Positions 8,557 to 48,276 of a stretch of DNA of 64,000 nt are shown piece after piece. The notes under the pieces are model-generated. The model was not told the origin of the DNA, made no database searches, and saw only the letters and a list, made by a program, of their open reading frames with translations. This stretch comes from Candidatus Raymondbacteria bacterium RIFOXYA2_FULL_49_16 (GTDB lineage: Bacteria; Fibrobacterota; OXYB2-FULL-49-7; XYB2-FULL-49-35), in NCBI GenBank assembly GCA_001789205.1, contig MFYT01000004.1, positions 25,544 through 89,543 on the forward strand. Reading direction: 5' to 3'. Numbering within the stretch: position 1 is the stretch's first letter; every line of letters starts with the position of its first letter. A program made the position numbers and the translations under genes.

Positions 8557-9798
8557 ATGGCCAACTACACGCGGCTTGCTTGTTCGTTCTGCGGCAAGGC
8601 ATCGGCTGAGGTGGGAAAACTCATCACCGGTCCGGACGTCAACATCTGCGACCGCTGCATTACCATGTGCAATGAGATCATCGCGGACGAGTCGCGCGCA
8701 AAGACCGGCCAGACCGCCATTGCCATGCCCACGCCCGCGCAGATCAAGGCCGACCTCGACCGGTACGTGATAGGCCAGGAAATCGCCAAACAGAACCTCG
8801 CGGTCCTTGTCTACAACCATTACAAGCGGATCAACGAACCGGCTTCCGCCACCGTTGAGATCGAAAAATCGAATATTCTTCTTATGGGCCCCACTGGTTG
8901 CGGCAAAACGCTCCTGGCCCAAACCCTGGCGCGGTCGCTCAAGGTCCCGTTTACAATCGCCGACGCCACAGTGCTTACCGAAGCCGGGTATGTGGGCGAA
9001 GATGTTGAAAACATTCTGGTGCGTCTGCTGCAGGCCGCCAACCACGACGTGGCAGCCGCGGAACGGGGCATTGTGTATATCGATGAAATCGACAAGATAA
9101 CCCGGAAATCAGCCAATCCATCAATAACGCGCGACGTATCGGGTGAAGGTGTGCAGCAGGGCCTGTTGAAGATCCTCGAAGGATCGGTCACCGCAGTGCC
9201 GCCAAAAGGCGGCCGCAAGCACCCCGAGCAAAACCTCATCAACATCAACACGAAAAACATCCTCTTTATCTGCGGCGGCGCCTTTGAAGGACTCGAGGAC
9301 GTGATCGCGCGCCGGACTGGCAAAGGCCGCATGGGATTTACGGGCAAGGAACGGCGGTCCATTATCCGTGAGCGCAACGACCTGCTGGCCCTGGTCGAGC
9401 CCGAGGACCTTATCCACTACGGCCTTATTCCCGAGCTCGTGGGAAGGCTTCCGGTCATCACGCCCGTGCAGGAGTTGGACAAAGACGCCTTGCGCGCCAT
9501 CCTCACCGAGCCGCGGAACGCCATCATCAAACAATACCGCCGCCTGCTTGAACTGGACGATGTTGAGCTTACCATCACGGACTGCGCGCTTGATGAAATC
9601 GTGAAGATCGCCCACAAAAAAAAGACCGGCGCACGTTCCCTGCGCCTGGTCCTTGAAAAAATCATGATAAAGGTGATGTACGAGATCCCGGAACAGAAAG
9701 AGATCCGCGAGGTGGTCATCGACGCTGGGGTCATTCAAGGCGAGAAGCGGCCCACATACGTCTATCGTGAACAGAAAGCGAAAAAACTCGCCTCATAA
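8557..9798 (+). CDS. clpX: ClpX, ATP-dependent Clp protease ATP-binding subunit
   Basis: 413 aa AAA+ unfoldase. The N-terminal zinc-binding domain shows CSFCGK and CDRCITMC; Walker A is GPTGCGKT; Walker B reads [10 protein letters not shown]; the pore and arginine-rich loop appear as [10 protein letters not shown]. The C-terminal small domain is complete ([14 protein letters not shown]). It selects and unfolds substrates and feeds them to ClpP. Its last 6 nt overlap the end of the convergent oxidoreductase gene, so there is no room for a separate terminator. Confidence 0.97.
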
Positions 9799-10803
9799 CC
9801 GGTTTTCATAGATCGCCAGCACCACATCAGTTGCCATGCGCGCGGATTCTCCGGATATTGCCGGTTCCCTGTTGTTTTTGACAGCATCGATAAAGTCCCG
9901 GATAATGGCCTCGTGCCCTGCGGTCTCTTTTACCGCCGCGCTGGTCGCGCTATCGTGGACGGCAAAACCCTTGGATTGCGTGGGATTTTCCATGCCTTCG
10001 ATGTTCCACACGGTTATCACATCGTTCTCCATGATAAAAGCGCCTTTGTCCGTATGAATATGCAATTGCGCTGGAAATCCGGGCTTTGCCGCTGTTGAGG
10101 CAATAACGGTCGCGATCATGTTGTTGGGATACATCAGCAGGGCCGCCCCATGGTCTTCGACTTCAATATCGTGTGCATAGGTCCCCAGGGCGCTGACAAC
10201 GCGTAATGGTTTGCCGAAAAACCAGCAGAGAATATCGATGTTGTGCGCGGCCTGGTGCATGAAGGGCCCGCCGCCATCGTATTTCCGCGAACCCCGGTAG
10301 GCCGCGCTGTTGTAATAGGCCTGGGGCCGGTAAAATTTTGCGATAAGGTCCGCAGCAAACACACGTCCAAGGGCGCCTGAATCGAGCAGCTGCTTTACAA
10401 CAACATTGTCCGGACTCATGCGCCGCTGAAAAGCGACACTGAGTTTTACCCCATGCTCCTTGCACTCGCGGATCATGAGGTCCATTGCTTCACGGGTTAC
10501 ATCGAGCGGCTTTTCGGTGAGCACATGCTTGTTCAGGCGCGCGGCGGCAACCGCACCTTCGTGGTGCAGTCCATTTGGCGTGGTGACAATGACCGCGTCA
10601 CAGGTATCGGCAAACGCTTCGAGCGAAAAGGCGACGGGGACTGCCGGATGGCCCTCTGGTACCACTGGCGCGGTGGCGCTCCGTGACACCACGCCTGTCA
10701 CGCATGCGCCTGGAATGGCGCGTATTGCCGCGCAATAGGTGCGGCACATGCTGCCCGAACCAATGATCACGAACCTGAAATTGTTTTCCAAGGATACGGT
10801 CAT
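9793..10803 (-). CDS. Gfo/Idh/MocA family NAD(P)-dependent oxidoreductase
   Basis: 336 aa from the ATG at 10801-10803, whose ATGA overlaps the TGA of the DUF362 gene upstream; the longer reading frame upstream is not needed. An N-terminal Rossmann fold starts [14 protein letters not shown], followed by the family motif EKP (LTEKPLDVT) around residue 95 and a C-terminal alpha/beta substrate domain with [27 protein letters not shown], where the conserved His/Lys-type catalytic residues lie. Such enzymes oxidise or epimerise sugars and inositols. The substrate cannot be read from sequence. Coupled translation with the DUF362 protein is likely. Confidence 0.85.
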
Positions 10804-13076
10804 TTCAGATATATCAGCTGCCGTGTCAGGACAGCATTGTTGGCCTTTAAACACGCGAAATATACTCCGCTCATGACTTCTTTGCCGTTTGCGTCTGTTC
10901 CATGCCACAAAACCGCCTGGCGGCTGGCGGCCCTGCGGCTTTTGTATATGTCTGCCACCTTACGTCCGGAAGCGTCGTATATCCCGAGCAATACAGGCGC
11001 ATTGCTCTTTGGCAAAGTAAAGGATATTTTCACCGTGCTGTTGAAGGGATTGGGGCTGCTGGCCAATATCATTTTTGTTCCTTGGGCAACACCCGCCTTC
11101 TCAACCGCCACGTCTGATCCCAGGTGGTAGAACGTGCCCCAAAGCGTACGGCCGCCGAAATAGGACATTTTTTGGGCCGCGGTAAAGGTGTCCGGCGTAC
11201 CGAGCGTCCAGCTTGACGAACTATGCGGAACATAGCCATTGCGCTCCGTGAGGCCGCCGATATTCACCACGGCAAGGCTGAAGCCATACTCGGATCCTGA
11301 CCGTCGCATCTTCACGAGAATACGATTGTCGCCTTGTTGTAAGTTTACAACGGGGAACGAAGAGACCCTGTCATAAGTAAGATAACTCGCGTTCGTGAGC
11401 GCCTCACCGTTAATATATATCTTAATATCTCGTACCCCGCCGGCATACAACATGCCGCTCTGCGCGGTTTTGGAATAAATCCTGGAGAAAGCGTATATGA
11501 TGCTGTTCGTCGCCGTATTCTGGTCCGCCACGGTCAGATCCACGTAATCCGAGGGAGAAATATATTCGGTCCATGTCTTGCCGTCCTCCTGATCGCCAGC
11601 CATGGGATTCGCGTCAGTCTCGGCAATCGCTTCGGAATCGTTTGTCGATGCGTTGAAAGGACCGAGCAAAAGCCATCTCCGGCAGCCGCGTCCATAATAA
11701 TGCATAGAATGAAAATCGGTATAATTGCCCGCTCTGCCTATGGGCGCCATAAAATCAGTCCGCACGCTGCCAATGGAATCGCCGATGACCGCAATTTGGT
11801 CAAGGAACATGGTGCCGGTTCCCTTGGCATGTTCCCAGCGAAGCAGGTCAAGGTCCATGGGGTTGATGTTTATTGTGGCGCAGGCCACGGCCTCGACGGC
11901 CACAGGATCGCCGCCTGTCATAATGAAGTTGCGGCGAAGAAACCCCGTGGACCTTCCGTTGGGATGGGAGCCGTCGCCCTCAAGAGACGCTATGCCGTCA
12001 ATAACGCAATAATCCGTGGGATGGTAGGCGAACAGGTTTAGCACGGTTTCCACAAGCTCGTCATGGTCGAGCAGACTCAGCGAGTTAACGCGCGGCCGCG
12101 GATAGGTGTCGCCCACCGCATACACGCCGCGCGACACCGAGCCTATGTAGTTCTTGTGCACGCAATTAAGAACAAGATGGTCGTTAAAAGTCGTTTTCAG
12201 GACAGGAACATTGACAAGAATATCGCAATTGAGCACAGCGTCGCATGGGACATAGCCATTGTCAGCCGTGGTGTTCGCGGTCGTCAGCGCCCCCAGGCCT
12301 ATCTGGTTATTGTCCGGCACCGGATATATCTGCGGCGCCATGCCCGCCCTTTCCGAGTCGGGAATCTCATTGTAGGGCCGGCCGTCGCTCATTATTTCAT
12401 TGAAATTTAAATTTATACAGTCAATTATTTTGCCCGGGTGGCGAACCCTGGCGGAATCAGCAATCGATCCGAGCGTAAAATCGGAGTGCAGGCCTGGAAA
12501 GAAGTCTGCCCAGGTATACGAACCGAATTGAGCCAGCTCGAATATGTCAAATTCCCCATAGCCAGCATACCCTCCGCCAGCAAGCAAGCTGATGCGTTGT
12601 GCGCCGGTACTGTCGGCTATATAATCAAGCACAGCCTGGATAATGCGTGGATCCGTCTGGTCTCCGGGCATATATTTCTGGCCTGGACAATACACAATGT
12701 TCGGCATTATGGCCACCCAGCATCCGGCGCCTTTGCCGTCAATTTTGTATTTCAATTCCGGGATGAGCGTTCCGAAATGTCTGTCCCCTGCAAGGGCCTT
12801 GAAGACCATCTCCCGCACCTCAGCCGGTGTGAGGTCCGCGGTGTCGCCCTTGGAAAATGAAAGGAGCGGGTTGCTGGCTTTTATGATGGACACGTGCGTC
12901 TTGATGGAAGCGCCCGTAACACCATCGTAGTCATCATTCTCTCCGGAATCGTAGAAGTAACTGTCGACCACCGGGTCGTTTCCCGCGTTGTTGCGCGACG
13001 TGACAATATCAACGGCCACAAGGCATGTGACCGCAACGGCGGCAAAAAAGACCTTCTTCCTTTTGACAAATCGCAT
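10800..13076 (-). CDS. Secreted DUF362-domain protein with C-terminal sorting domain
   Basis: 758 aa from the ATG at 13074-13076, which has a strong purine-rich GGAGGGGGAGGGG ribosome site just upstream. The N-terminus (MRFVKRKKVFFAAVAVTCLVA) is a signal peptide or anchor. A DUF362 region (about 75-430) contains DILVNVPVLKTTFNDHLVLNC and the TGGDPVAVEAVACA segment; several DUF362 proteins are thought to bind iron-sulfur clusters or act on polysaccharide substrates, but their function is open. The C-terminal 90 residues (ASSPNPFNSTVKISFTLP ... RQLIYLK) form a type IX-style sorting domain. A TATAAT-like hexamer lies on the minus strand at 13102-13107. Confidence 0.75.
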   Translation of the reverse strand: MRFVKRKKVFFAAVAVTCLVAVDIVTSRNNAGNDPVVDSYFYDSGENDDYDGVTGASIKTHVSIIKASNPLLSFSKGDTADLTPAEVREMVFKALAGDRHFGTLIPELKYKIDGKGAGCWVAIMPNIVYCPGQKYMPGDQTDPRIIQAVLDYIADSTGAQRISLLAGGGYAGYGEFDIFELAQFGSYTWADFFPGLHSDFTLGSIADSARVRHPGKIIDCINLNFNEIMSDGRPYNEIPDSERAGMAPQIYPVPDNNQIGLGALTTANTTADNGYVPCDAVLNCDILVNVPVLKTTFNDHLVLNCVHKNYIGSVSRGVYAVGDTYPRPRVNSLSLLDHDELVETVLNLFAYHPTDYCVIDGIASLEGDGSHPNGRSTGFLRRNFIMTGGDPVAVEAVACATININPMDLDLLRWEHAKGTGTMFLDQIAVIGDSIGSVRTDFMAPIGRAGNYTDFHSMHYYGRGCRRWLLLGPFNASTNDSEAIAETDANPMAGDQEDGKTWTEYISPSDYVDLTVADQNTATNSIIYAFSRIYSKTAQSGMLYAGGVRDIKIYINGEALTNASYLTYDRVSSFPVVNLQQGDNRILVKMRRSGSEYGFSLAVVNIGGLTERNGYVPHSSSSWTLGTPDTFTAAQKMSYFGGRTLWGTFYHLGSDVAVEKAGVAQGTKMILASSPNPFNSTVKISFTLPKSNAPVLLGIYDASGRKVADIYKSRRAASRQAVLWHGTDANGKEVMSGVYFACLKANNAVLTRQLIYLK

Positions 13077-13171
13077 GATCCCCTCCCCCTCCACCCGAAT
13101 GATTATAGAACAAATATCAGTATAAATCTAGATAATTACTCAATGAAAAACAAACGAATTTTCACCTGATT

Positions 13172-14407
13172 TTATAGCAGATGGTCCACCTTCTCATCAG
13201 CGCTAAATATCAACACAAACCCGTCCACATTGTTCATGGATAAAATATCCATGACCTCTTTTTGCGTGTTGAAGACCATGAACTTGCCAGACATGCCGCG
13301 TATTTTTTTATTGAGGTTTTTCAAAAACTGCATGAACGTGGCGTCAATGTCGTCCACGCCCTCAAAATCGAACGCTATGTTTTGCGATCCCAACGCGAGC
13401 ATCTCCTGGATGCGCAGCTTGACCGGAATCATGGAATAGGCGTTCAGCCTGCCGCGCAGTTTGAGGATCCTGAAATACTTGCTCGCCTTTTCCTCGATCC
13501 CCACCTGCGATGTTTTCACAACAGCCGCTTTGAACCCTTTGCCGGCCGACCCTCTCTTTTTTCCCTTCTGCCGCGTCGAGGGATCCGCGATCTTCTTGCG
13601 CGCCAGGTAGTAATTAGTACTTACCAAAGGGCTGGTGTCGCGGTCCAGGCGCCCGAGCAGCTGGGCAAGGGGCTGGCTCTCAATCCCGATCTCGCCAATG
13701 ACCCATGCGGCGCTGGCGCGCATGAGTTCAGACGGACTGGTGACCATTTCCTTTAAGTCCTTTTCCACATCGTGGTAGCCCAGGCTCCAGAGCGCTTTTA
13801 CGACATTGGCGCGCACCCGGTTGTTGGTGTCGTTTTTAATGCGTAACAGCACACTCACGCTGTTCTTGTTCTCGGTCTCCTCAAGCGCCTCCACCGCATT
13901 GGCGCGCACGCGCGAATCAGCGTCCTTGAGATAGGTGACAATGATGGCCGGCTCCTTCTTGCGCGCCATGGTGCCCAGGGTCTTCACGGCTGCGGCCCGG
14001 ATCAGCTTGTTACTGTCGTTGAGCGCTTGCTGGAGAATGTCCGAGGCTGTGCGCACGCTGTTCATGGAGCGGAGCAGAAAGAGAGAATCGAACCGTTTCT
14101 TTAAGTCTGTGGAAAGAAAATCAGCGCGCAACCGTTCGAGGATTTCGGGTTCAAACTTGAGCAGAAGACCCACCAGCACGTCGCGCGTACCCGGTTCAAT
14201 GGCGTTGTCCATGCTGCGCAACGTCTCCTGGATCACCGATGACGCAATACGCATAGCCTCGTCCGCGGGCATGCCTTTTTTCCCGCGGATGATCTCCATG
14301 ATCATGGGCAAATTGACGTAGAAATTGTCGCGGGTTATCTGGCGAAGTCCCTCGAGCTGTTCTGTTTCCAGGGGGCTTAAAAGCAGTTCCTTGAGCGAAG
14401 CGTTCAT
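13172..14407 (-). CDS. HEAT-repeat protein with C-terminal STAS domain
   Basis: 411 aa, soluble, no signal peptide. Residues about 95-260 hold five or so HEAT/PBS-lyase-like repeats (SNKLIRAAAVKTLGTMARK, DSRVRANAVEALEETE, NNRVRANVVKALWSLG, SELMRASAAWVIGEIG). Residues about 305-405 are a STAS fold of the anti-sigma-factor-antagonist kind (AFDFEGVDDIDATFMQFLKNLN), with Asp instead of the usual phosphorylatable Ser before the alpha1 helix. It is the last gene of an overlapping operon after pdxA (ATGA overlap). It is likely a protein-interaction hub in a partner-switching pathway; partners are unknown. Confidence 0.75.
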   Translation of the reverse strand: MNASLKELLLSPLETEQLEGLRQITRDNFYVNLPMIMEIIRGKKGMPADEAMRIASSVIQETLRSMDNAIEPGTRDVLVGLLLKFEPEILERLRADFLSTDLKKRFDSLFLLRSMNSVRTASDILQQALNDSNKLIRAAAVKTLGTMARKKEPAIIVTYLKDADSRVRANAVEALEETENKNSVSVLLRIKNDTNNRVRANVVKALWSLGYHDVEKDLKEMVTSPSELMRASAAWVIGEIGIESQPLAQLLGRLDRDTSPLVSTNYYLARKKIADPSTRQKGKKRGSAGKGFKAAVVKTSQVGIEEKASKYFRILKLRGRLNAYSMIPVKLRIQEMLALGSQNIAFDFEGVDDIDATFMQFLKNLNKKIRGMSGKFMVFNTQKEVMDILSMNNVDGFVLIFSADEKVDHLL

Positions 14408-15384
14408 ACTGTTTTCCCTTTCCGCGCCATTGTGGCGGCAAGCGTAATAGCGTCGATCATGCTGCCAGGATCAGCCACGCCCTTGCCGGCAATATCAAAC
14501 GCCGTACCATGGTCGACTGACGTGCGTATAAAAGGAATGCCCAGGGTCACGTTCACCCCTGCGGTGCGGCCGCGGCGCTCGGTAAGGCTGAAGAGCGCTG
14601 TCTTGAAGGCCACGTGGCCGTGGTCGTGGACCATGGAAACCACCCCGTGAAACTTGTCGCCAAAAAGCTGCGCAAACACCACGTCGGGCGGCACAGGCAG
14701 GGACGCGCGTATCCCCTCCCTGTTTAATTGCTTGACAGCAGGAACAATCTCCCGCTCCTCCTCCGCGCCGAACATTCCTCCCTCGCCCGCATGGGGATTG
14801 AGGCCCGACACGCCGATGCGCGGCGCGCGCACGCCAATGCCCTTGAGAAACCCATTGAGGAGCCTGGCCGTGGCAACCACCCGTTCACGCGTCACCATCC
14901 TGATGGCTGTGCGCAGGGGCTCGTGTAGAGTGACAAAGGCGATGGTCTTTCCGGCCGCGTACAAGGCAAGGCAATACCGTTTAATTCCCGCATACTCCGC
15001 GATGTAATCCGTGTGACCATGGAAGCCCTTTACTCCCGAAAGGGCCACCGCCTCCTTGGACAGCGGGGCCGTGGCAATGCCGTCTATCTGCCGCGCGGTC
15101 ACCAAGCCCAGGGCCGCATTGAGCGCGATGAGTGCCTCCCTGCCGGCGCGCGCCTCGGTTTTGCCGTACCGCGGAACACGCGCGCACGGGTCACTGTTGA
15201 AAAGGGGGATCCTGGACAGGGAAACGCCCAGACATGCGGCCGCGCTGCCGATTGCGGCTGCGGAGCCAATAATCAACGGCGAACAGATCGCCCGCACTGG
15301 CCGATGGAGCGCCGCCTTGACCGCAAGTTCGGGACCAACACCATTGGGGTCGCCCGCGGTGATGCCGATAACCGGTTTTTTCAT
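14404..15384 (-). CDS. pdxA: 4-hydroxythreonine-4-phosphate dehydrogenase
   Basis: 326 aa, normal family length. It oxidises 4-phosphohydroxy-L-threonine in the DXP-dependent pyridoxal phosphate pathway. Family signatures are visible: N-terminal GITAGDPNGVGPE, the metal/substrate His residues in GFHGHTDYIAEYAG, LNPHAGEGG and VHDHGHVAFK, and the C-terminal TSVDHGTAFDIAGKG. Both ends overlap neighbours by 4 nt. Nearby genes are not B6 genes, so a PdxA2-type role on another phosphorylated sugar acid remains possible. Confidence 0.93.
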   Translation of the reverse strand: MKKPVIGITAGDPNGVGPELAVKAALHRPVRAICSPLIIGSAAAIGSAAACLGVSLSRIPLFNSDPCARVPRYGKTEARAGREALIALNAALGLVTARQIDGIATAPLSKEAVALSGVKGFHGHTDYIAEYAGIKRYCLALYAAGKTIAFVTLHEPLRTAIRMVTRERVVATARLLNGFLKGIGVRAPRIGVSGLNPHAGEGGMFGAEEEREIVPAVKQLNREGIRASLPVPPDVVFAQLFGDKFHGVVSMVHDHGHVAFKTALFSLTERRGRTAGVNVTLGIPFIRTSVDHGTAFDIAGKGVADPGSMIDAITLAATMARKGKTV

Positions 15385-16607
15385 AATACCGTCCCTTTAC
15401 GCTCATCAACAAGGAATAGAAGCGCAATGCCAATGACAAAGAAACCCGCGGTCATGAGTATGGCCGAACGGATGTCCCCGCCAGAAAATGACAGGAAGAG
15501 CCCGAAGGTAAAAAGACCACACAGGGCCGCGGCCTTGCCCGCAAAGCCCCAGAAGCCATAAAATTCAGCTTCCTTTCCCGCAGGCGCAAAGAGGCCCACA
15601 ATGCTGCGGCTCGCTGACTGGCTTGCGCCCATGGCAAAACCCACCGCATTGGCCACCACCCAGAAGCTCTCCCGCTCCTTTACAAAATATGCTCCCAGCA
15701 CCGCGGAAATCCAGAGGAAAAGCGTTATGAAGAGCGTACGGCGCGCGCCAATACGGTCCTGGACAAAACCAAACACAAAGGCGCCCGCAGCCGAGGTGAC
15801 GTTCGCGGCCAGGATGAGGAGAATGATCTCCTTCTGCGAAAAATGCAGCGCCTCCTGGGCAAAAATCGCTGCGAATGAGATCACCGTGGCTGTGCCGCAC
15901 GTGTAAAAGAAAAACGAGAGCAGGAAGAAAAACAACTCGCGATAGTGCCTGATGTCCCTGAACGTGTCGCGCAGACTGCTGAACCCCGCCTCGGGAATGG
16001 TCTTGTTCGACGGTGGAAGCGGTGCCGCGGTCCGTTCTTTTAACAGAAAAAAGACCGGCAGGGCGAAAACCCCGAAAAAAAGCGCGGTAAGAACAGGTGT
16101 GAACCTCAACGCGTTCTCGCCATAGCCTGCGTGTGAGAGATACGCGAGGCAGAGCAGAAGCGAGGAAATGCCGCCCACATATCCGAACGACCACGCGTAC
16201 CCCGATATGCGGCCAATGGTATGGCGCGACGCAAGGCCGGGTAGAAAGCTGGAAACAAAATTCTCGGACAGGGCAAAGCCGAAATTCGAACAGATGACCA
16301 TGGCGCAGGCGAGGAATACGTGTTCGCTGCTCCCGAAATAGAGCAGCGCGGTTGACGCAACACAGATCGCGTACGACGCGAAGAGAAAGCGCTTGCGGCT
16401 GTTGCCAAAGTCGGCCATGGCCCCGGCGATGGGGCTGGCGATAATGACAAAGAGATATGAAAGCGAGAGGGTCAGTGACCAGAGAAAGGGTGTACCAATA
16501 GCCGAGACAAAATAAGCGTTGTATACGGCCGTGATGATGACCGTGGTGTAGCCAGAATTGGCGAAATCAAAGAGGCAGAAGCCGAAAATTTCACGTTTTG
16601 CCGCCAT
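15381..16607 (-). CDS. MFS transporter, UMF1/Atg22-like
   Basis: 408 aa with about twelve hydrophobic helices. The start GFCLFDFANSGYTTVIITAVYNAYF is the signature of the UMF1/vacuole-effluxer-like branch of the major facilitator superfamily (DFANS motif). A second recognisable block is ASRSIVGLFAPAGKEAEFYGFWG. Bacterial members are uncharacterised exporters, some linked to sugar or amino-acid release. It overlaps pdxA by 4 nt and follows the HAD gene by 6 nt. Confidence 0.88.
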   Translation of the reverse strand: MAAKREIFGFCLFDFANSGYTTVIITAVYNAYFVSAIGTPFLWSLTLSLSYLFVIIASPIAGAMADFGNSRKRFLFASYAICVASTALLYFGSSEHVFLACAMVICSNFGFALSENFVSSFLPGLASRHTIGRISGYAWSFGYVGGISSLLLCLAYLSHAGYGENALRFTPVLTALFFGVFALPVFFLLKERTAAPLPPSNKTIPEAGFSSLRDTFRDIRHYRELFFFLLSFFFYTCGTATVISFAAIFAQEALHFSQKEIILLILAANVTSAAGAFVFGFVQDRIGARRTLFITLFLWISAVLGAYFVKERESFWVVANAVGFAMGASQSASRSIVGLFAPAGKEAEFYGFWGFAGKAAALCGLFTFGLFLSFSGGDIRSAILMTAGFFVIGIALLFLVDERKGTVL

Positions 16608-16613
16608 GCACGC

Positions 16614-17261
16614 CTATGCTTCCAAAAACCGGACAATGTCCACCAGACCAGCGGCCACGGTTTGCACCGCCAGGTCAGCCTCGCCCAGGTCCTCGGGATA
16701 GGGGCCGGTATGCACGCCCACCACACGCGCGCCCGCTGCCTTTGCCGCGCGTATCCCAATGACCGAATCCTCAAAGACCGCGCAGGCGGCGGGCGGCCTG
16801 CCCACCCGTTCTGCGGCAAGAAGATACCCTTCGGGGTCGGGCTTGAAGGCCCGCACATCCCCCGCGTGGACTCGTACGGGAAAATACGTCTCCAGCTCCG
16901 TGGAACGCAGCACCGCCTCAACGGTTTTCTGCGCGCTCGCGCTCACCAGCGCAATGGGAACCCGGCCATGGTAGCGTTCCAAAAGATCCCTGATACCCGG
17001 CAAAGGATCTATGGGCCCTTCAAGCAGTCTGACAAAAAGATCGTGCTTTTCGCGCACGGCTGTATGCAATGGCACGGGAAAAGGGTGCACCGCGTTCACA
17101 TCCGTAAAAATCGACACAGTGTTTCTCCCCTTGACCGGGATATGCCTGACGTCCGTGGCTGGGATGCCATAGGCGCGGTAGACCGCTTGACGCGCTGCTT
17201 CGTGGACCGGCTCGGTGTCGACCAAAACCCCATCCATGTCGAACATGAGCGCCTGGATCAT
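16614..17261 (-). CDS. HAD-superfamily phosphatase/phosphomutase (beta-PGM-like)
   Basis: 215 aa. HAD motif I is DMDGVLVDTEP (nucleophile Asp and acid/base Asp), motif II is ALVSASAQ, motif III is the Lys of KPDPEGYLLAAERVG, and motif IV is VFEDSVIGIRAAKAAG. The alpha-helical cap between residues 15 and 80 makes it subfamily I (beta-phosphoglucomutase, phosphoglycolate phosphatase and similar sugar phosphatases). The substrate is unknown. It overlaps the amidohydrolase by 4 nt. Confidence 0.87.
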   Translation of the reverse strand: MIQALMFDMDGVLVDTEPVHEAARQAVYRAYGIPATDVRHIPVKGRNTVSIFTDVNAVHPFPVPLHTAVREKHDLFVRLLEGPIDPLPGIRDLLERYHGRVPIALVSASAQKTVEAVLRSTELETYFPVRVHAGDVRAFKPDPEGYLLAAERVGRPPAACAVFEDSVIGIRAAKAAGARVVGVHTGPYPEDLGEADLAVQTVAAGLVDIVRFLEA

Positions 17262-18478
17262 ACAAGCACCTCCTTCCCATTTACCAAAACAAAAACCACG
17301 TCGCGGTCTTCGGTTAGAATCTCCTCAACCACGTCGCCGCTGGAGCATTCATGAAGTCGCACGCCGATAAGATCGGCCAGAAAGCCCTGCCGCACTTGTC
17401 CCAGCACCCCATTGAGCCCAATGGCGCGCGCGCCCCCCTGAATGGCAAGACAGAGGATTTCCTCGCCCGAAAGCGCCGGGGCAAGGGATTTCAAGCAGAA
17501 AAGCTCGTCAAAGAGGTTGAGCGAATCGACCGTGGCAAGGCTGTCCGTACCCACACAGACATTGATGCCGCTGGCGCGGAATTTTTCCAGGGGAAAGGGG
17601 CCATGGTTGAACCGCTGCCAGCTCCGAGGGCAGATAACCACAGAGACCTCTTGACGCGCCATGCGGGCAATCTCCTGGTCTGAAACGAAATTCGCGTGCG
17701 CCACGATCATTTTCCGGGGAACCAGTGAACGCGAAAACAGATACGAGACTGGAGACTCGCCTATGGGGCACGACAACCCCATGCCATGCCTGCTGAGGGC
17801 GGCATTGAGTCCGCCTGTGCCGTACAGAAAGAGATCGTGCTCCTCTTTGCTCTCGGCCACATGGCTCAAAACAAAGACATTCTGTTCAGCGGCATAAGCA
17901 AGGCACTGCCTGAAAAGCTCTTCAGGGACCGAATAGGGCGCATGGGGGCAAATACCCCAGTTAGACAGCTCATTTGCCAAAAAGCCGCTCGCTTTGGCAA
18001 GGGTGTCGGCAAAAATGGTTGCGGGATCCTTACCCCCGGCAAGGGAAAACTCAAGGAAAATGATCGACCGAAGCCGTTCGTTGAAAAGTATCTTGAACGA
18101 GGCGCCGCTATAGCTGGAGTCGAGCACGGTCGTTGTGCCCGAATTGAGGCATTCAAGAACGCCCAGGTGCACGGCATTGATCTCTTCATCGAATGAAATC
18201 TCTTGTCTCTTATGCAAAAAATCAGACAGCCATATTGAAAAGCTACTCGAATAATCGATAACGTCCCGGAGAGGACCATATTCAAGGTGCGTATGAGCAT
18301 TGATGAGACCGGGCAGCAGCGCCGTATTCTCAAAAAAGAGCTCGTGGTCATTTGGATATTTATCCTTAAGCAGCCTCCAGGCGCCCACATCGACTATCCG
18401 TTTATCCACAACCCTCACACAACCGTCATTAATGACACCCTGGTGCAGCGTAATAATCTTGGAGGCCCCGTAAAGCAT
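17258..18478 (-). CDS. Metal-dependent amidohydrolase (ATZ/TRZ, cytosine deaminase-like)
   Basis: 406 aa from the ATG at 18476-18478, which begins at the expected first strand (MLYGASKIITLHQGVI); an earlier in-frame start at 18520 would add 14 residues. Metal ligands appear as INAHTHLE, CPHAPYSVP, LSHVAES and GTDSLATVDSLNLFDEL. The family deaminates or dechlorinates purine-like and triazine-like substrates (SsnA, S-adenosylhomocysteine deaminase, aminodeoxyfutalosine deaminase). A menaquinone-pathway deaminase is possible but no mqn gene is nearby. It is the first gene of the overlapping operon running to 13,172. Confidence 0.82.
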   Translation of the reverse strand: MLYGASKIITLHQGVINDGCVRVVDKRIVDVGAWRLLKDKYPNDHELFFENTALLPGLINAHTHLEYGPLRDVIDYSSSFSIWLSDFLHKRQEISFDEEINAVHLGVLECLNSGTTTVLDSSYSGASFKILFNERLRSIIFLEFSLAGGKDPATIFADTLAKASGFLANELSNWGICPHAPYSVPEELFRQCLAYAAEQNVFVLSHVAESKEEHDLFLYGTGGLNAALSRHGMGLSCPIGESPVSYLFSRSLVPRKMIVAHANFVSDQEIARMARQEVSVVICPRSWQRFNHGPFPLEKFRASGINVCVGTDSLATVDSLNLFDELFCLKSLAPALSGEEILCLAIQGGARAIGLNGVLGQVRQGFLADLIGVRLHECSSGDVVEEILTEDRDVVFVLVNGKEVLV

Positions 18479-18581
18479 GCTCAAAAAATAAGTTACATGA
18501 CTTGATGAAAGCAAAACCAACCGTTCTGCGGGAAACCCTTGCCCTTTGGGGTGAGAAATTATATTTTAATATAAATCTTTG

Positions 18582-18587
18582 TATAAT
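18582..18587 (+). promoter_or_regulatory. Putative -10 box before the STAS-PEGA gene
   Basis: A perfect TATAAT stands 30 nt before the ATG at 18617, in a very AT-rich 135-bp gap between divergent genes. No good TTGACA lies at the right distance, so a plain sigma-70 promoter is only tentative. AGGA about 10 nt before the ATG is the ribosome site. Confidence 0.35.
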
Positions 18588-18616
18588 TTAAACTTTTTAT
18601 AAAAGGACCTATTCTC

Positions 18617-20380
18617 ATGGAAATGCGCATTCATTCCCTGGGTATCTTCGAGGTCATTGTGCCCGAACTTGGGGCCGACCAAATTTTCGACACGGAAAAA
18701 CTCAAAGATTTTTTCACTTCAGCGCTCAACCGCGGGGTCCGGAATTTCTGCATCGACTTCTCGCGTTTTTCATCGCTCGATAAGGCGGTAATAAAATCTA
18801 TCATAAGCTTGAATAAGGTTGTTTTGCGCTCAACCGGCAGACTCACCATTCTCTCCACCAACAGCGCCATCACAGAGACGCTCGACCATTCGGGCATTTC
18901 CGGCATTATCCGCGTCTATCTGTCCGAAGATGAAATCAGCGCAGATTCAAAAGAGATCCTGAAACAGACCGAATCATTCTACATCGGCAACATCAAGCAG
19001 GCCGAACCCCCCAAACACCTGAAGAAAGAGGACACGCCCGAATCCAAGGTAAAAGCCGACACACCGCCAAAAGACCAGTTTGATACGCTCAAGGCTGAAC
19101 TTTCGAGCCTCATCTCATTCGATACCGATGAACCTGAAACGCCATCCACTACCCCGCCACCGCAGCAGCAACCGAAAAAAGAGGAGAGCGTACTCGAGAC
19201 CATTCCGGAGAGGAAAGAACAACCCCGGGAAAAAAGCGAACCCGATACTGGGTGGCTTAAAAAAGACCTCTCAGCCCTCTTTTCCGATTCCTCCGAGCCC
19301 GAGAAAAAACCAGAACCAAAACCCGAGCCGCCAAAGCCAAAGGAAGAAGAAGCGCCTTTTATCTCTTCAGCGCCAAAAACTTTCAAACAAGGTGAACCCA
19401 GGTATCACGCGCCTCGCGCTGTGGAACAACCTGCGCAGTCGCCGAAAAAGCCAGCACCCGCAATGGACCCAGGGTCCCGCAAAACCGGGGAAGGGCCTGT
19501 TCCCGAGAAAAAGAAATCCGGCGTTCCCAAGGCAATACTTGTCATTTTACTTCTTTCCGTTATGGCCGGGGCCGTATATATGTTTGTTTTAAAGCCAGCG
19601 GACGAGAACGCCCCTATCGAGCGTCCAACTAAATATACCGCGGAACAGCCGCCTGTGGAAAAACAACCCTTGGCGCCTCCTGAGGCCGCTCCTGTTGTTC
19701 CTGAAAAACCTGCTGAAGCCGTACCACAACCCGAAGAACAAGTAGAACCTGAAAAAACAGTTAAACCCGAGTTCAGGCCTGCTCCCATGAAGCCGGAGTT
19801 CAAACCCGCTCCTAAGCCTGAACCCAGACCAGCTCCAAAGCCTACTCCAAAGCCAGAACTTAAGCCTGAACCCAAGCCTGCACCCAAACCTGAGCCTAAG
19901 CCCGAACCCAAGCCTGCACCCAAACCTGAGCCTAAGCCCGAACCCAAGCCTGCACCAAAACCTGAGCCTAAGCCCGAACCTAAACAGGAAGCAAAACCTG
20001 CTCCGGCAAAAGCCGCGCCTCAACCTGAAAAAAGCATTGAGGAAGAGGCTGATGATCTTTTTGCCGATGAACCAGCAACAGCGCCTGCTGCAAAAGCCGC
20101 TCCAGTTCCGGCCGCTCCAGCCCCCGCTCCAGCAGCAGCTGCTCCGGCGCCTGCGGCTGCCGGAGGCGGAAGTAGTACTGGGGCAATCTTCATCTCATCG
20201 TCTCCGCCAACTGCCGAGATCATTTATGATGGTAAAGTGGTGGGTACGGCAAACCGCGCGCCGGTCACGCTTCCGGTTGGCACCTACAAAATTACCCTGC
20301 GCAAGGGTTCCATTGAGACTGAAGTCGAAATCGAAGTGCTCGAAGGCAAGAACAAACCCAAGTTCATCAAGCTGAAATAA
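18617..20380 (+). CDS. STAS domain - transmembrane - proline-rich spacer - PEGA domain protein
   Basis: 587 aa with an unusual order of parts. Residues 1-110 are a STAS domain (FCIDFSRFSSLDKAVIKSII). Residues 115-300 are charged, low complexity. One transmembrane helix follows at about 303-325 (AILVILLLSVMAGAVYMFVL). Then comes a long TonB-like Pro-Lys-Glu spacer (about 340-520) including three exact 12-residue repeats, and a C-terminal PEGA domain (about 525-587, IFISSSPPTAEIIYDGKVVG). The layout implies a cytoplasmic STAS sensor or anchor joined through the periplasm to a PEGA domain near the cell wall or outer membrane. The next gene, 5 nt on, is a cell-wall endopeptidase. Confidence 0.8.
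   Translation: MEMRIHSLGIFEVIVPELGADQIFDTEKLKDFFTSALNRGVRNFCIDFSRFSSLDKAVIKSIISLNKVVLRSTGRLTILSTNSAITETLDHSGISGIIRVYLSEDEISADSKEILKQTESFYIGNIKQAEPPKHLKKEDTPESKVKADTPPKDQFDTLKAELSSLISFDTDEPETPSTTPPPQQQPKKEESVLETIPERKEQPREKSEPDTGWLKKDLSALFSDSSEPEKKPEPKPEPPKPKEEEAPFISSAPKTFKQGEPRYHAPRAVEQPAQSPKKPAPAMDPGSRKTGEGPVPEKKKSGVPKAILVILLLSVMAGAVYMFVLKPADENAPIERPTKYTAEQPPVEKQPLAPPEAAPVVPEKPAEAVPQPEEQVEPEKTVKPEFRPAPMKPEFKPAPKPEPRPAPKPTPKPELKPEPKPAPKPEPKPEPKPAPKPEPKPEPKPAPKPEPKPEPKQEAKPAPAKAAPQPEKSIEEEADDLFADEPATAPAAKAAPVPAAPAPAPAAAAPAPAAAGGGSSTGAIFISSSPPTAEIIYDGKVVGTANRAPVTLPVGTYKITLRKGSIETEVEIEVLEGKNKPKFIKLK
19871..19978 (+). repeat. Three tandem 36-bp repeats coding for a Pro-rich spacer
   Basis: Three head-to-tail copies of a 36-bp unit encode PKPAPKPEPKPE. 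The copies are almost identical (one C-to-A change in the third), so the array is recent and could change length by slippage without shifting the frame. Degenerate copies extend to both sides. Confidence 0.9.
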
Positions 20381-41454: not shown

Positions 41455-41835
41455 ATGAAGAAGATACTCATAGTTGACGACGACAGCGCCATGCGCGAAG
41501 TTGTGAAGACCGTGCTTGCCGGCTCTTACGAGGTCCAGGAAGCCTCGGGCAAGGCCCAGGGCCTGGGCAAGGTAAAGAGTTTTAATCCCGACCTGATAAT
41601 CCTCGATGTCATGATGGAAACAGCCTCCGCGGGTTTCGACATGGCGCGCGAACTCAAGGGTGACAACAAGCATAGCAAGATAAAAATCCTGATGCTTACC
41701 AATGTGAGTATGGAATCAAAGATGGATTTTTCGACCGTGGCCGGCGATCCCGAGTGGCTGCCGGTCGACGAATTCCTATCAAAGCCCATTGACCCCAAGG
41801 GCCTTTTTGCCACTGTAAAGAAACTACTCGCCTAG
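41455..41835 (+). CDS. Single-domain response regulator (CheY-like)
   Basis: 126 aa, receiver domain only. Acidic pocket VDDDS, phospho-acceptor Asp in LIILDVMMET, the switch Thr in MLTNVS and the conserved Lys in FLSKPID are all present, so phosphorylation is expected. No output domain. Two-component proteins lie 1.5 to 4.6 kb downstream on the other strand; a link is only positional. Its stop overlaps the end of the convergent CsgG-barrel gene by 4 nt. Confidence 0.9.
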   Translation: MKKILIVDDDSAMREVVKTVLAGSYEVQEASGKAQGLGKVKSFNPDLIILDVMMETASAGFDMARELKGDNKHSKIKILMLTNVSMESKMDFSTVAGDPEWLPVDEFLSKPIDPKGLFATVKKLLA

Positions 41836-43289
41836 AAAAAAATATTCAGGCCAAGGCTGGCCGAGGGCCCGGAGAAATCAACGCTCGATTGTTCCTTGTT
41901 CAGCACCCGATCGGCAATGGGCTGGCTCAGAAACGACGGACTTGTTTTTTCGAAAAAATAGACCTCGCCGCCTGAATTGTTTTGTCCCATGGAAAGCGTA
42001 TAGTTCGTCTCCCCGTCAGAAACAACGTCTCCCGCAAGGACGTTATCGAGCTTGGCAAGATTGCCCGTACCCTCGTATCCGGAAAGCTCAAGACGCGTAA
42101 AGGCAACCTGGAGTTCGATGCCAAACCGCCGCGTAAGCTGCAGCACCGCCCCAACGTTAACGCCGAATCCCGGTCCTGAATGGTCCAAATCAACATGTGC
42201 GTCAATTTTTCCCTGGTGTCGTATTCCCAGGGTGTCGTACCCGTCGAATTGTCCTGCGGCTGAAAAGGAGTACGATGAACTGAACATGAGCAGGTCAATG
42301 CCCGCATAGGGATGGAGGCGATTGAAATGCCACGAAGCCCTGCCGCCAACGGCGAACAGACTGTTCCGGACATCAGTCTCTATGGTAATATTGCCCCCGG
42401 AAAAAAGGTGCGTGTTGTGCGGCGCTGGCTGCAACCGGTATCCGCCAATGCCCGAGCTTGCGGTGGACAAGCCGCTGATTCTCAGCGCTATATGCGAGGT
42501 AAGTTTACGGCAAAGGTAGAGCCCGCCGCCCTTAAACGTGGTAAGGTTGACCTCGCCGCTTTCCTGTACCAACTGATAATTATGAAATATGGGAGGATTC
42601 TCGTATGTGGACATGACATTGTTGAATTCAGGATCAGCCCCATGCGCTGTCCAAAAGAGTCCCAGTGTCCAGTGGTGCATTGCACGCACGGGCTTGTCAG
42701 AAGCGGTTTCCACTGCGGTTTCCTGAACAGCCTGCGGCGCAGGCTGGGGCGCTGCCACGGGAGCAGCGGATTGAGCAATGGCCTGCGGAGCTGTTTTTGA
42801 CCCGCCGGCAAGACGATCAGCCGCGGTCTTCATGGCTCCGCCCAGATCCTCGATACGGCAGCGGCATTCGCCCGAATACGTATCGACCAGTTTTCCCGTG
42901 CTCACGTCGATAATGCGCAAATTTATGAGATAGACCGTTCCCAGCATGCCAATGGACCCAGCGACCATTTTCGACGCGCCCAGCAATTGTCCGATTTCCA
43001 CCATGCACGCCTTGTCGTCGCAGACGCCGCTCTGCTGAAATCCCTGTTCCTTCAAAATGGCGTCCATTTCACCCCGTTCCATAACCGCAAAGCGGCCGGT
43101 ATTGAAAAGCTCGGCGCGCAGCCGGTCGGATAATATGCCCGAGGCTGACTTGAGGTCGCCTTCGGCTTTCAGGTCCATGATGCCAATGACCTCCTTGTTC
43201 GAATCCACGGCTGCGTTCGCTGCACCCATGAAGAGCGAAAGACCCACGGCCATAAGCGACATGACTCTAACGATGAATATGCTTTTCAT
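41832..43289 (-). CDS. CsgG-like domain fused to an outer-membrane beta-barrel
   Basis: 485 aa from the ATG at 43287-43289 (AGGAAAGGA upstream, signal peptide ending GAANA). Residues 25-200 are a CsgG-type domain (FAVMERGEMDAILKEQGF, GVCDDKACMVEIGQLLG) like the gene at 29,012. An Ala/Pro/Gln-rich linker follows (about 200-235). Residues 240-485 are alternating-hydrophobic strands ending in ...LGLNIFF, the terminal Phe expected of BAM-inserted barrels. A periplasmic sensor or assembly domain tethered to its own barrel is implied. Confidence 0.7.
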   Translation of the reverse strand: MKSIFIVRVMSLMAVGLSLFMGAANAAVDSNKEVIGIMDLKAEGDLKSASGILSDRLRAELFNTGRFAVMERGEMDAILKEQGFQQSGVCDDKACMVEIGQLLGASKMVAGSIGMLGTVYLINLRIIDVSTGKLVDTYSGECRCRIEDLGGAMKTAADRLAGGSKTAPQAIAQSAAPVAAPQPAPQAVQETAVETASDKPVRAMHHWTLGLFWTAHGADPEFNNVMSTYENPPIFHNYQLVQESGEVNLTTFKGGGLYLCRKLTSHIALRISGLSTASSGIGGYRLQPAPHNTHLFSGGNITIETDVRNSLFAVGGRASWHFNRLHPYAGIDLLMFSSSYSFSAAGQFDGYDTLGIRHQGKIDAHVDLDHSGPGFGVNVGAVLQLTRRFGIELQVAFTRLELSGYEGTGNLAKLDNVLAGDVVSDGETNYTLSMGQNNSGGEVYFFEKTSPSFLSQPIADRVLNKEQSSVDFSGPSASLGLNIFF

Positions 43290-43327
43290 CTTGGATATTC
43301 CTTTCCTGCAAAAAACAACGGTAATAA

Positions 43328-43366: not shown

Positions 43367-45775
43367 TCATTGCACCCAATACGCATACCCGCCCTCAAGG
43401 ACAAGGATGTTCTCGTAGCCACGCGACACAAGGTGGCGGTACGCTTCGTAGGCACGCGAACTGGTCTTGCTGTATACAACGCACTTTGCCTTCTTGTCAA
43501 ATGCGATGCCCTCGCGCCGCAGGTTCTCGAGCGGTACATTGACGCTGCCGGGAATGGCGTTCATCATGTGCTCGGACACAGGCGACGCGTCGATAATGTG
43601 ATACGCTCCCATGTTCCGGGAGAGGTCCTCGGCCGTTATGGTCTTGATAAAGCCCTCCATTTTACTTCCCAACACCAGGCAGGCGGTCTGGACCACGTCA
43701 ATGGGGATGTTAAACTCGGGCGCATAGCCCAAGTCGAGCGCAAAGATGTCGGTAAGCGTCATGGCTTTGGCAATGCCGCAGGCAACGACCTGCACGTGCC
43801 TGAAGACATCGCCGCGGCCATAGCCCTGCACACCCAGAACGCGTCCGGTCTTTGTATCGGCAATAAGCTTGAGGGTAACATACTGGGCGTTCCGGGCGTA
43901 ATGGGCGCGGTCCAGGCCAGTGACTACCACGGCCATGGCGTTAAACCCGTGTTCACGCGCCCGTTCGAAGGTGAGGCCTGTGCGCGCTATGGAAAGGCCG
44001 AAGCTCTGGAACACCACCGTGCCGATGAACCCGTCGAACACAGACGCACGTCCGCATATGTTGTCCGCGGCAATGCGCCCCATTTTAGTTGATATGGAAC
44101 CCAGGGGCCAATATTCCTGCGTGCGTGTGATGCAGTTGACGCTTGCTGCGCAGTCGCCTATGGCGTAGATGCTTTTGTCCGATGTCCGTAAGTGGCGGTT
44201 GACCATTACCGCTCCCACAGGAGTGCACGCGAGGCCCGCCTTTTTCGCCAGCCGCGCATTGGGCACCACGCCCGCGGAGAGAATCACCAGATCGGCGAAA
44301 AATTTGCCTTTGTCCGTGGAGAACACCAGCTGCTCCCCTTTGCGCGCAATACGCTCAATGGCCGTGTCCGTGACTATTTTGATGCCCTTCTTTGTCATGG
44401 CGTTCTGGATCTTTCCCGAGATATCACGGTCAAATATAGTGGAAAGAATGTGCGCCTTTTTTTCGAGTATGGTAACGCGCGCACCCGCTTCTATAAGCGA
44501 CTCCGCGGTCTCAATGCCGATAAGTCCGCCGCCGATGATGCAGACGTCGCGCGCGTTCCTGCCCATGCATTCGCGCTTGATCGCCTCCGCGTCCTCAACG
44601 CGATGAAGCGAGTAAATGCCCGGCAGCCGTATGCCCGGAATGGGCGGCAGAAAGGAGTCGGCGCCCGTGGCAAGGACTAGGGCGTCATAGGGAACGCGCC
44701 ATGACTCTCCCGTGGCAAGGTCCTTCACCTCCACGGTCTTCCTTTTTCTATCAATATCGACCGCCTCGATCTTGTTCAATATTTTGATGTTCCGGATGGT
44801 CTCAAAAAAGCTGATGTCGCGGATCGTGTTGTCCGCAGTGGACATGAGCGCCTTGGGCGAAAAAACCCTGCCCGCGATATACGAGGGCAGCCCGCACCCT
44901 GAGTAGGAAAGGAACTCGCCTTTCTCGATAATGGTGATGTCCATGTCCTCGCACAGCCGCCGCAGGCGCGCCGCGGCCTTAGGCCCAGCGGTGACCCCGC
45001 CGATGATGACCACCCGTCTGCGCTTTCGCGCGCCGCGCGCCAAGGACCGCACCCGCGTATAGGGCAGGGAAATGGTAAAAATACTGCCCGCGTTCTCACG
45101 CGACTCGGCGCTGATGCCGCCGCCCATGGAGGTGATGATGTTCCTGGTAATGGAAAGGCCCAGGCCTGTTCCAGCCGCAGCGCTCTGGTGTTTGACTGAC
45201 CGGTAAAAGGGGTCGAAAACATTGTCCAGTTCTGCCGTGGGAATGCCGCTGCCCGAGTCGGACACGGCAATGACGCATTGCTTCTTTCCTTTCTGCACCG
45301 ATGCCTTGACAACAATATGGCCGTGCGCGGGTGTGTACTTTATGGCGTTCTCGATCAGGTTCCGGAGCGCAATCTCGAGGCCGCGCATTGATCCTTTTAC
45401 AAATATCGCCGTATGCTCTGGCAGGCGGGTGCGCAGGAAAACCTCCCGGTCTGACGCCTCGGCCATATAGGCGCCCGCCACGGTGTGGGTCAGATCAACG
45501 CAGTCGAATTCCTCGGCCGCGGCCTGTCCGGCGCCCGCGTATTGCTGAAAGGTGAGCAGATCGGCAATGAGCGTATTCGCCTCAGCGGTCTTGCCGATGG
45601 CTTTTTCAATGAAGTGGCGCGTCTTGTCGCTGATGTCGCCCGTAAAACCGTCGGCAATGGTCTTGAGAAGGGAATTGATGGTGTTTATGGGAGATTTGAG
45701 CTGGTGGGAAAGCGTGCCGATGAATTGCTCGCCTCGCTGAGCGGGCGAAACGGGACGCGAATCGTTCTGCCTCAT
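43367..45775 (-). CDS. Histidine kinase - CoA-disulfide reductase-like - rhodanese fusion
   Basis: 802 aa from the ATG at 45773-45775 (GGAG 6 nt upstream; a TTG four codons earlier is possible). Part 1 (about 10-240) is a soluble histidine kinase core: phospho-acceptor His24 in GTLSHQLKSP, N-box LIENAIKYTP, G1 DSGSGIP and G2 GTGLGLSI, without transmembrane or PAS domain. Part 2 (about 252-700) is an FAD/NAD(P)-disulfide oxidoreductase of the CoA-disulfide reductase/NADH oxidase group: VIIGGVTAGPKAAARL, redox Cys294 in SYSGCGLPSYI, VCIIGGGLIGIETAE and YAIGDCAA. Part 3 (about 705-802) is a rhodanese fold whose active-site Cys is Ser769 (VYSKTSSRA). No frameshift or stop separates the parts. Confidence 0.88.
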   Translation of the reverse strand: MRQNDSRPVSPAQRGEQFIGTLSHQLKSPINTINSLLKTIADGFTGDISDKTRHFIEKAIGKTAEANTLIADLLTFQQYAGAGQAAAEEFDCVDLTHTVAGAYMAEASDREVFLRTRLPEHTAIFVKGSMRGLEIALRNLIENAIKYTPAHGHIVVKASVQKGKKQCVIAVSDSGSGIPTAELDNVFDPFYRSVKHQSAAAGTGLGLSITRNIITSMGGGISAESRENAGSIFTISLPYTRVRSLARGARKRRRVVIIGGVTAGPKAAARLRRLCEDMDITIIEKGEFLSYSGCGLPSYIAGRVFSPKALMSTADNTIRDISFFETIRNIKILNKIEAVDIDRKRKTVEVKDLATGESWRVPYDALVLATGADSFLPPIPGIRLPGIYSLHRVEDAEAIKRECMGRNARDVCIIGGGLIGIETAESLIEAGARVTILEKKAHILSTIFDRDISGKIQNAMTKKGIKIVTDTAIERIARKGEQLVFSTDKGKFFADLVILSAGVVPNARLAKKAGLACTPVGAVMVNRHLRTSDKSIYAIGDCAASVNCITRTQEYWPLGSISTKMGRIAADNICGRASVFDGFIGTVVFQSFGLSIARTGLTFERAREHGFNAMAVVVTGLDRAHYARNAQYVTLKLIADTKTGRVLGVQGYGRGDVFRHVQVVACGIAKAMTLTDIFALDLGYAPEFNIPIDVVQTACLVLGSKMEGFIKTITAEDLSRNMGAYHIIDASPVSEHMMNAIPGSVNVPLENLRREGIAFDKKAKCVVYSKTSSRAYEAYRHLVSRGYENILVLEGGYAYWVQ

Positions 45776-45847: not shown

Positions 45848-46507
45848 CTATGCGGCAATAGGCGCAATGACCGGTTTCTCGAACTGGAGGCCATACCGCA
45901 CGCCGGTTTTCTCGGGGTCTTTGCGCACGATCACGCCTTCGCGGAAGGTATATTTTTTCTCGTCCCAGGCCTTGATCCCCACCTTGAGGCGATGGTTGAG
46001 ATCAAAAGGATATTTGCTGTGAAAACCAATGCCCGACAAACTGACGTCGACTACTGAATCTATGGCGTTTGTATCAGGATCAACGGCCACCGCAGGGTGC
46101 TTCTTGAACCGCTTGAAGAGCCTCTTCTCGGATGACACCCGATTCTGTAAAATCCCAAGCAACACTTGGGTCAATTTTACAAAGTCGATTCTGCGGGTAA
46201 AGACGCACTCCACACCTGCGCGCGCATGTGAAAAATTTATATCCCGTTCTGAATAGAAAATAACCTTGGCTTTGGCGGCATCCTTGTGCTTTTTAATTTT
46301 TGAGAGGATCTCCTGACCCCCAATACCAGCCATGCTAAAATCGGAAATAATCACATCAACATTTATATAGGGTAGCAGGTTAGGGAAATGGCATCCGCCT
46401 TCGCAGCAGGCGACATATTGGAACCCCTGTTTTTTCAGCATCTTATGAACAAGGAAAATATCCTCTGGTTCATCGTCCACAATAAATATTTTCTGTTTCA
46501 GAGGCAT
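45848..46507 (-). CDS. Response regulator with PilZ output domain
   Basis: 219 aa. Receiver domain (1-122) has the acidic pair VDDEPED, phospho-acceptor Asp in VIISDFSM, but the conserved Lys-Pro is replaced (VFTRRIDF). The PilZ domain (about 128-215) keeps both c-di-GMP motifs, RLFKR and DVSLSGIG, so second-messenger binding is expected. It ends 72 nt before the kinase-fusion ATG on the same strand, a natural partner for it. Confidence 0.87.
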   Translation of the reverse strand: MPLKQKIFIVDDEPEDIFLVHKMLKKQGFQYVACCEGGCHFPNLLPYINVDVIISDFSMAGIGGQEILSKIKKHKDAAKAKVIFYSERDINFSHARAGVECVFTRRIDFVKLTQVLLGILQNRVSSEKRLFKRFKKHPAVAVDPDTNAIDSVVDVSLSGIGFHSKYPFDLNHRLKVGIKAWDEKKYTFREGVIVRKDPEKTGVRYGLQFEKPVIAPIAA

Positions 46508-48021: not shown

Positions 48022-48276
48022 TTACAGTATTCTGTAGACCTGTGATATCGACAGCCCAACTTTTTTTGCAATTGCCGCGCCGGAAGCGCCTTTCTTGTAC
48101 ATGCCTTTGATGGTATCATTACGTTCTTTGTTCTTTTTCCTGTTGTAGTCGAGTCCGTATTTGATCCGGAGTTGATGCACTGCCTGGCGGGTAATGCCGA
48201 ATTTCTTTCCAATCGCAGCGTCGGTCTTCAAAGTCTTCTGAAGGTTCTTTAACTGGTCTTTGCTGATTCGTGCCAT
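48022..48276 (-). CDS. Small double helix-turn-helix DNA-binding protein
   Basis: 84 aa with AAGGAGG 6 nt before the ATG. Two similar HTH units are visible: residues about 8-40 (DAAIGKKFGITRQAVHQLRI) and about 52-84 (GASGAAIAKKVGLSISQVYRI), both of the resolvase/Hin or homeodomain-like type, with a basic linker (NRKKNKER). No catalytic domain. A related double-HTH protein is at 58,120. It may be a repressor; its targets are unknown. Confidence 0.7.
   Translation of the reverse strand: MARISKDQLKNLQKTLKTDAAIGKKFGITRQAVHQLRIKYGLDYNRKKNKERNDTIKGMYKKGASGAAIAKKVGLSISQVYRIL

Follow-up and report, generated by a model that had tools for sequence, protein, structure and literature searches.

Little is known of how anaerobes sense their thiol or persulfide and NADH state when routing electrons to H2 or sulfide, and one gene in the DNA stretch that we analysed (the window, 64,000 nucleotides of Candidatus Raymondbacteria bacterium RIFOXYA2_FULL_49_16) raises the question of whether a histidine kinase may take such an input from an enzyme fused to it. 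The gene lies on the minus strand at 43367-45775, running from an ATG at 45775, with GGAG immediately 5' of it, to the end of the stop codon at 43367. The original prediction of one uninterrupted 802-codon frame holding a kinase, a flavoprotein and a rhodanese was borne out by the open reading frame, by Pfam and by full-length relatives, with the domains ordered HisKA, HATPase_c, CoADR/NPSR flavoprotein and rhodanese and all Pfam matches above their gathering scores.

Evaluating the domains residue by residue revealed a complete HisKA-type kinase core, composed of a HisKA dimerisation and phosphoacceptor domain (residues 16-77; 45545-45730, minus strand; Pfam 2.9e-7) with His24 in SHQLKSP, and a HATPase_c catalytic domain (residues 131-240; 45056-45385, minus strand; Pfam 2e-26) with Asn143 in the N box, Asp173 and Gly175 in the G1 box and GTGLGL as the G2 box. 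This half scored 139 bits against the NCBIfam PnpS core over residues 16-238. The flavoprotein part possesses the features that define the CoADR/NPSR superfamily, namely FAD- and NAD(P)H-binding folds with a single flavin-side cysteine (Pyr_redox_2, residues 254-546; 44138-45016, minus strand; Pfam 2.5e-63; Cys294 codon at 44894-44896) and a dimerisation domain with the tyrosine of the YAP motif, Tyr684 (Pyr_redox_dim, residues 593-689; 43709-43999, minus strand; Pfam 3.8e-12). It scored 358-360 bits against the TIGR03385 CoA-disulfide reductase equivalog, below the curated cut-off of 578.8, which was reached in none of the 14 control genomes either. The AN(K/R)xGR motif of the CoADR/NPSR family, with its Asn, is absent from the window protein, which has STKMGR there, and in the rhodanese domain (residues 714-801; 43373-43636, minus strand; Pfam 2.1e-14) the catalytic cysteine of NPSR/CoADR-RHD persulfide reductases is absent, with Ser769 (codon 43469-43471) in its place. 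His24, the N, G1 and G2 boxes, Cys294 and Ser769 thus all sit where they had been placed beforehand. No transmembrane segment was found in the 802-residue protein, the maximal Kyte-Doolittle 19-mer being 1.47.

An assembly error or a frame-shift might join two genes in this way, but 14 further full-length or near-full-length fusions, 33-62% identical, were found in 13 other genomes of two phyla. Among the 167 genomes of the window's phylum, four others aligned end to end (G018, 63%; G044, 60%; G006, 59%; G060, 51%; identities from the search alignments), and a profile built from the five fusions of this phylum was used to search the phylum of L032, a 'Spirochaetae bacterium' MAG. This search revealed the fusions of G212 and G242 at about 1050 bits and, spread over seven genomes, a second group of eight fusions at 630-680 bits (G215, G236 with two, G229, G222, G207, G196 and G171). 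Within that second group, the L070 fusion has a stop inside the kinase frame, such that its open frame begins past HisKA, and the L075 fusion lacks the start of the kinase frame at a contig edge. The original prediction had named an artefact, or relatives that all split near residue 245, as grounds for abandoning the fusion; the 13 other genomes hold continuous open frames of the same architecture, and the relatives are not all split at that point. The artefact explanation is refuted by the same open junction in the 14 further proteins, which leaves it a negligible probability, and the gene is real, single and present in at least two bacterial phyla. No fusion was found in the 398 genomes of Pseudomonadota (the phylum of L031, Sulfuricella) nor in 72,556 PLSDB plasmids, and a peptide-pattern scan of genome contigs, which is sensitive to close relatives only, added none.

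With the window protein included, these searches give 15 fused proteins in 14 genomes, two phyla and two clades. A tree of the CoADR part placed the window protein and the fusions of G018, G044, G006, G060, G212 and G242 in clade I (support 100/100) and the eight other fusions in clade II (support 100/100), with both clades and the unfused proteins of L038, L077 and L078 forming an unresolved fork. When a clade II kinase domain was compared with the seven clade I genomes, each of which held 3 to 47 kinase matches, the fused kinase came out best every time, by a narrow margin in G000 and G006, and we therefore favour one fusion event rather than two. The genes of L077 and L078 are the closest unfused CoADR-rhodanese genes of the Spirochaetae-type phylum and have, in two genomes, ParA/Mrp-type P-loop ATPase genes on both sides, a conserved arrangement.

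Comparing the window protein with known systems revealed that each half belongs to a known family. From residue 254 to residue 800, the protein aligns end to end with A. fulgidus NPSR (6pfz; E 1.4e-105), and the window protein shares with the NPSR/CoADR-RHD enzymes (6pfz; 3icr, B. anthracis CoADR-RHD; 3ntd, S. loihica NPSR; 8a56, E. faecalis CoAPR) the order of FAD, NAD, dimerisation and rhodanese domains, the flavin-side cysteine and the YAP tyrosine. Unlike these enzymes, it carries a histidine kinase of about 250 residues in front and has exchanged the rhodanese Cys for Ser and the Asn of AN(K/R)xGR for Thr. Its kinase has all the catalytic boxes of the soluble HisKA/HATPase_c cores of the PnpS/PhoR/WalK type but, unlike them, no membrane or N-terminal sensor, and here the flavoprotein lies C-terminal to the catalytic domain. 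An AlphaFold2 model of the monomer, made from a 16-row alignment (mean pLDDT 85.9), shows two HisKA helices (11-41 and 50-80), the ATPase domain to residue 244 and then the NPSR fold, with the kinase and NPSR folds separate and a short low-confidence link between them at 247-249. The best Foldseek match to the model was again A. fulgidus NPSR 6pfz (TMt 0.95, 35% identity), and among the best matches listed, by sequence or by fold, no solved structure spanned both halves. The claim that no such fusion with a histidine kinase in front was known agrees with our literature search, which returned no title or abstract describing one; we found no description of the fusion in the papers searched, and uncharacterised database entries of the same architecture may exist.

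We compared the active sites of the fused proteins with those of unfused relatives. On the kinase side, the residues at N143, D173, G175 and T203 were invariant in the 15 fusions, and His24 was kept in all 13 fused proteins that cover that position. On the flavoprotein side, the Cys294 position was Cys in 15 of 15 fused proteins and in 42 of 43 unfused relatives (the remaining one being a gap), and Tyr684, present in all 15, was equally constant in the unfused relatives. The rhodanese catalytic position followed a different pattern: it was Ser in all seven clade I proteins, so that the Ser at position 769 is a family trait of the window's clade, while in clade II it was Cys in five, Ser in two (the sisters L073 and L076) and Asp in one (L071). 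The cysteine was thus missing from 10 of 15 fused proteins versus 1 of 42 unfused ones (Fisher 7e-7, with kinship ignored), and parsimony on the tree requires at least three losses within the fused lineages. The description of the rhodanese as 'Cys-less' holds for this catalytic position and not for the whole domain, which has C765 nearby, itself conserved in just 4 of the 15. Only C294 and C542 among the cysteines of the window protein are invariant across the fused proteins, on which ground we reject a thiol switch through other conserved cysteines.

In characterised enzymes the rhodanese cysteine takes up sulfur, which passes by way of CoA to the flavin-side cysteine (PMC7969121), and turnover of E. 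faecalis CoAPR reportedly depends on Cys42 as well as on the rhodanese Cys508 (PMC9405070). The window protein has therefore probably lost the persulfide relay known from characterised NPSR enzymes, and keeps the flavin, Cys294 and NAD(P)H site. A kept flavin site with a lost rhodanese cysteine is the pattern expected of an enzyme turned receptor, which it does not by itself prove. Cys294 could still support plain enzymatic turnover, and the protein might be a working reductase of the CoA-disulfide or NADH oxidase type whose kinase core serves as regulator or dimer scaffold, which would make it an enzyme under phosphorylation control rather than a sensor. All 15 fused proteins do have an intact FAD domain, NAD(P)H domain, Cys294 and Tyr684, and A. 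fulgidus NPSR has NADH oxidase activity too (PMC7969121), but the loss in 10 of 15 of the cysteine that corresponds to Cys508, on which E. faecalis CoAPR reportedly depends together with Cys42 (PMC9405070), a canonical kinase core and a receiver gene conserved nearby make a working enzyme quite improbable.

The suggestion that the rhodanese had become a binding or regulatory module was supported, as the conserved Ser769 fits a non-catalytic or binding role. We reject mere decay of the domain in clade I on account of a new rhodanese loop, YS(K/R)(T/S)S(S/A)(R/G)AY, which is a signature of this clade and is conserved across two phyla. Likewise, STKMGR stands in all seven clade I proteins where the CoADR family has AN(K/R)xGR, a motif whose Asn was kept in all eight clade II proteins and in 42 of 43 unfused ones. 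These two conserved signatures would also suit a sensor of a ligand rather than of redox state, in which the pseudo-rhodanese and the altered CoA site bind a CoA-type or anionic ligand and the flavin is mainly structural. The rhodanese interface of E. faecalis CoAPR indeed buries the 3'-phosphoadenosyl part of CoA (PMC9405070). Such a ligand receptor would have no need to keep Cys294 and the NAD(P)H domain, yet both are found in 15 of 15, and clade II retains the Asn and often the Cys, such that we regard it as unlikely.

We narrowly favour the reading that the fused protein is a soluble homodimeric kinase with a converted NADH-dependent persulfide reductase as its input and that it would signal to a stand-alone receiver encoded at 41455-41835. 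Its input module would be a CoADR-rhodanese derived from an NADH-dependent persulfide reductase, in which the flavin, NAD(P)H and the Cys294 thiol (with CoA or another sulfur ligand) would report the NAD(P)H/thiol or persulfide redox state. Because there is no conventional N-terminal sensor, the input must reach the kinase from the C-terminal side, an unusual order, and the flavoprotein dimer behind the kinase core might set the state of the DHp helices, and with it that of the DHp/CA core, through the short linker at 245-253. The core would then phosphorylate or dephosphorylate the receiver, which, having no effector domain, would have to act by binding something. Through the fused protein and its receiver, a converted enzyme probably informs the cell of its thiol or NADH redox state. 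We infer what is sensed (NADH/NAD+, CoA or persulfide), in which direction the kinase responds, phosphotransfer, the receiver target and an H2/sulfur output, and the arguments from known ligands all rest on unfused enzymes.

The fused protein appears to be a two-component kinase whose redox input derives from an enzyme. Sensory hydrogenases of the HupUV/HoxBC type, which signal through the kinases HoxJ/HupT, also use an enzyme-derived redox module as kinase input; there the enzyme is a hydrogenase and a separate polypeptide, whereas the window flavoprotein is fused to its kinase. ArcB, RegB/PrrB, NreB and NifL-type systems bring a cytoplasmic redox signal to a kinase core via PAS, quinone-binding, Fe-S or FAD-PAS modules, and none of them is known to use a pyridine nucleotide-disulfide reductase module such as we propose as input here. 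A whole persulfide-reductase scaffold placed on a kinase, retaining one of its active sites and losing the second several times over, offers a directly testable example of the path from enzyme to receptor, for which a candidate receiver is at hand and the genomic contexts point to hydrogenases.

Evaluating the gene neighbourhoods for a partner pointed to this receiver (41455-41835, plus strand; 126 residues; convergent to the fused gene), which retains D8-D10, D51, T82 and K110. A single-domain receiver lies adjacent or one gene away, 3' of all six clade I fusions that have 3' sequence, convergent in four and on the same strand in two. In G018, G044 and G006, a receiver 54-58% identical to that of the window lies directly 3' of the fused gene and convergent to it, with gaps of 300 bp and 11 bp and a 6-bp overlap. 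In G212 and G242 the receiver follows immediately on the same strand, 12 bp away or overlapping, and with only 30-35% identity to the window receiver these two may represent different receiver lineages. Close homologues (E <= 1e-32) occur in 4 of the 167 genomes of the window's phylum, all of them fusion-bearing, which amounts to four of five fusion genomes versus none of 162 others (Fisher 1.6e-7, kinship ignored). In the fifth, G060, the contig stops 40 bp past the fusion, and the rest of this 82% complete bin yielded no close homologue. Fusion and receiver are not neighbours in most clade II genomes. With its conserved neighbourhood, its co-occurrence with the fusion and an intact phosphoacceptor site, the 41455-41835 receiver is the probable cognate response regulator of the fused kinase. 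The gene between the two in the window (41832-43310, minus strand; Pfam CsgG 1.8e-11) encodes a CsgG-like/outer-membrane protein, is not there in the other loci and stands outside the system. It combines a CsgG/LpoB-like N-terminal domain with a probable outer-membrane barrel, and a second CsgG-like gene is found at L039 13017-14000, on the same genome contig as an ordinary CoADR-rhodanese.

A different partner had been proposed originally, the REC-PilZ gene (45848-46507, minus strand), through which a thiol-redox input would lead to a c-di-GMP output. The gene is indeed the next one upstream of the fusion, on the same strand and 72 bp away, and its sequence contains the PilZ motifs RLFKR and DVSLSG. 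However, no REC-PilZ homologue was matched in the neighbourhoods of the other fusion loci, and its receiver has TRRID in place of the KP motif with its Lys, the Pfam match stopping at position 81 of 111, ahead of this region. We reject REC-PilZ as the partner on account of this lack of conservation and the missing Lys; the c-di-GMP link falls with it and is very unlikely, the conserved neighbour being the stand-alone receiver on the plus strand. Also near the window fusion is a gene for a helix-turn-helix-like protein of 84 residues (48022-48276, minus strand), whose 60% identical counterpart adjoins the G060 fusion (L037 1212-1742, minus strand) and is not beside other fusions.

Evaluating the genomic contexts further, we found links to hydrogen and redox metabolism. 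The closest paralogue of the window receiver in its own genome (43%) lies directly behind a cluster for an NADH-dependent group A6 [FeFe] hydrogenase, an assignment made at 818 bits where the cut-off is 765. In G196, a clade II genome, an operon with the large and small subunits of a sulfhydrogenase-type [NiFe] hydrogenase ends in a receiver gene, which the fusion faces. The same operon with its receiver begins at one contig end of G215, whose fusion stops at another contig end, and the G215 subunits match the models for sulfhydrogenase alpha, beta and delta without reaching the strict equivalog cut-offs. A receiver of the hydrogenase-linked type in G207 lies 3' of a stand-alone CoADR-like flavoprotein gene, and in G171 such a receiver lies within an [FeFe]-hydrogenase-type cluster, as judged from neighbour sequences. 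A NikR-type gene precedes the G229 fusion, and upstream of three clade II fusions are Mrp-type antiporter genes, confirmed by Pfam in one case. These hydrogenase, flavoprotein, NikR-type and Mrp-type contexts suggest that the pathway may serve H2/sulfur/NAD(P)H electron balance. More tentatively, and with considerable doubt, the fusions might constitute a previously undescribed two-component class in which a persulfide reductase was captured as a cytosolic kinase input, its relay cysteine being lost repeatedly, and in which single-domain receivers would act on NAD(P)H enzymes, [NiFe] and [FeFe] hydrogenases among them, and so match the disposal of electrons as H2 or through sulfur to the thiol/NADH state. 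A literature search for sulfhydrogenase-linked two-component systems returned no paper with a title or abstract describing one.

Receivers of this kind were also seen at loci apart from the fusions. The partner-related stand-alone receiver of the window's own genome ends its group A6 [FeFe] hydrogenase cluster at L045 9173-9544 (plus strand), and hydrogenase-linked receivers recur in L075, L094 and L097. At L096 6408-8149 (minus strand), a receiver directly behind a stand-alone CoADR-like flavoprotein gene forms an unfused flavoprotein/receiver pair. Also within L045, positions 9561-10432 and 12126-18992 hold a CRISPR-like repeat array, whose repeats were read as open reading frames, adjoining type I Cas-like genes.
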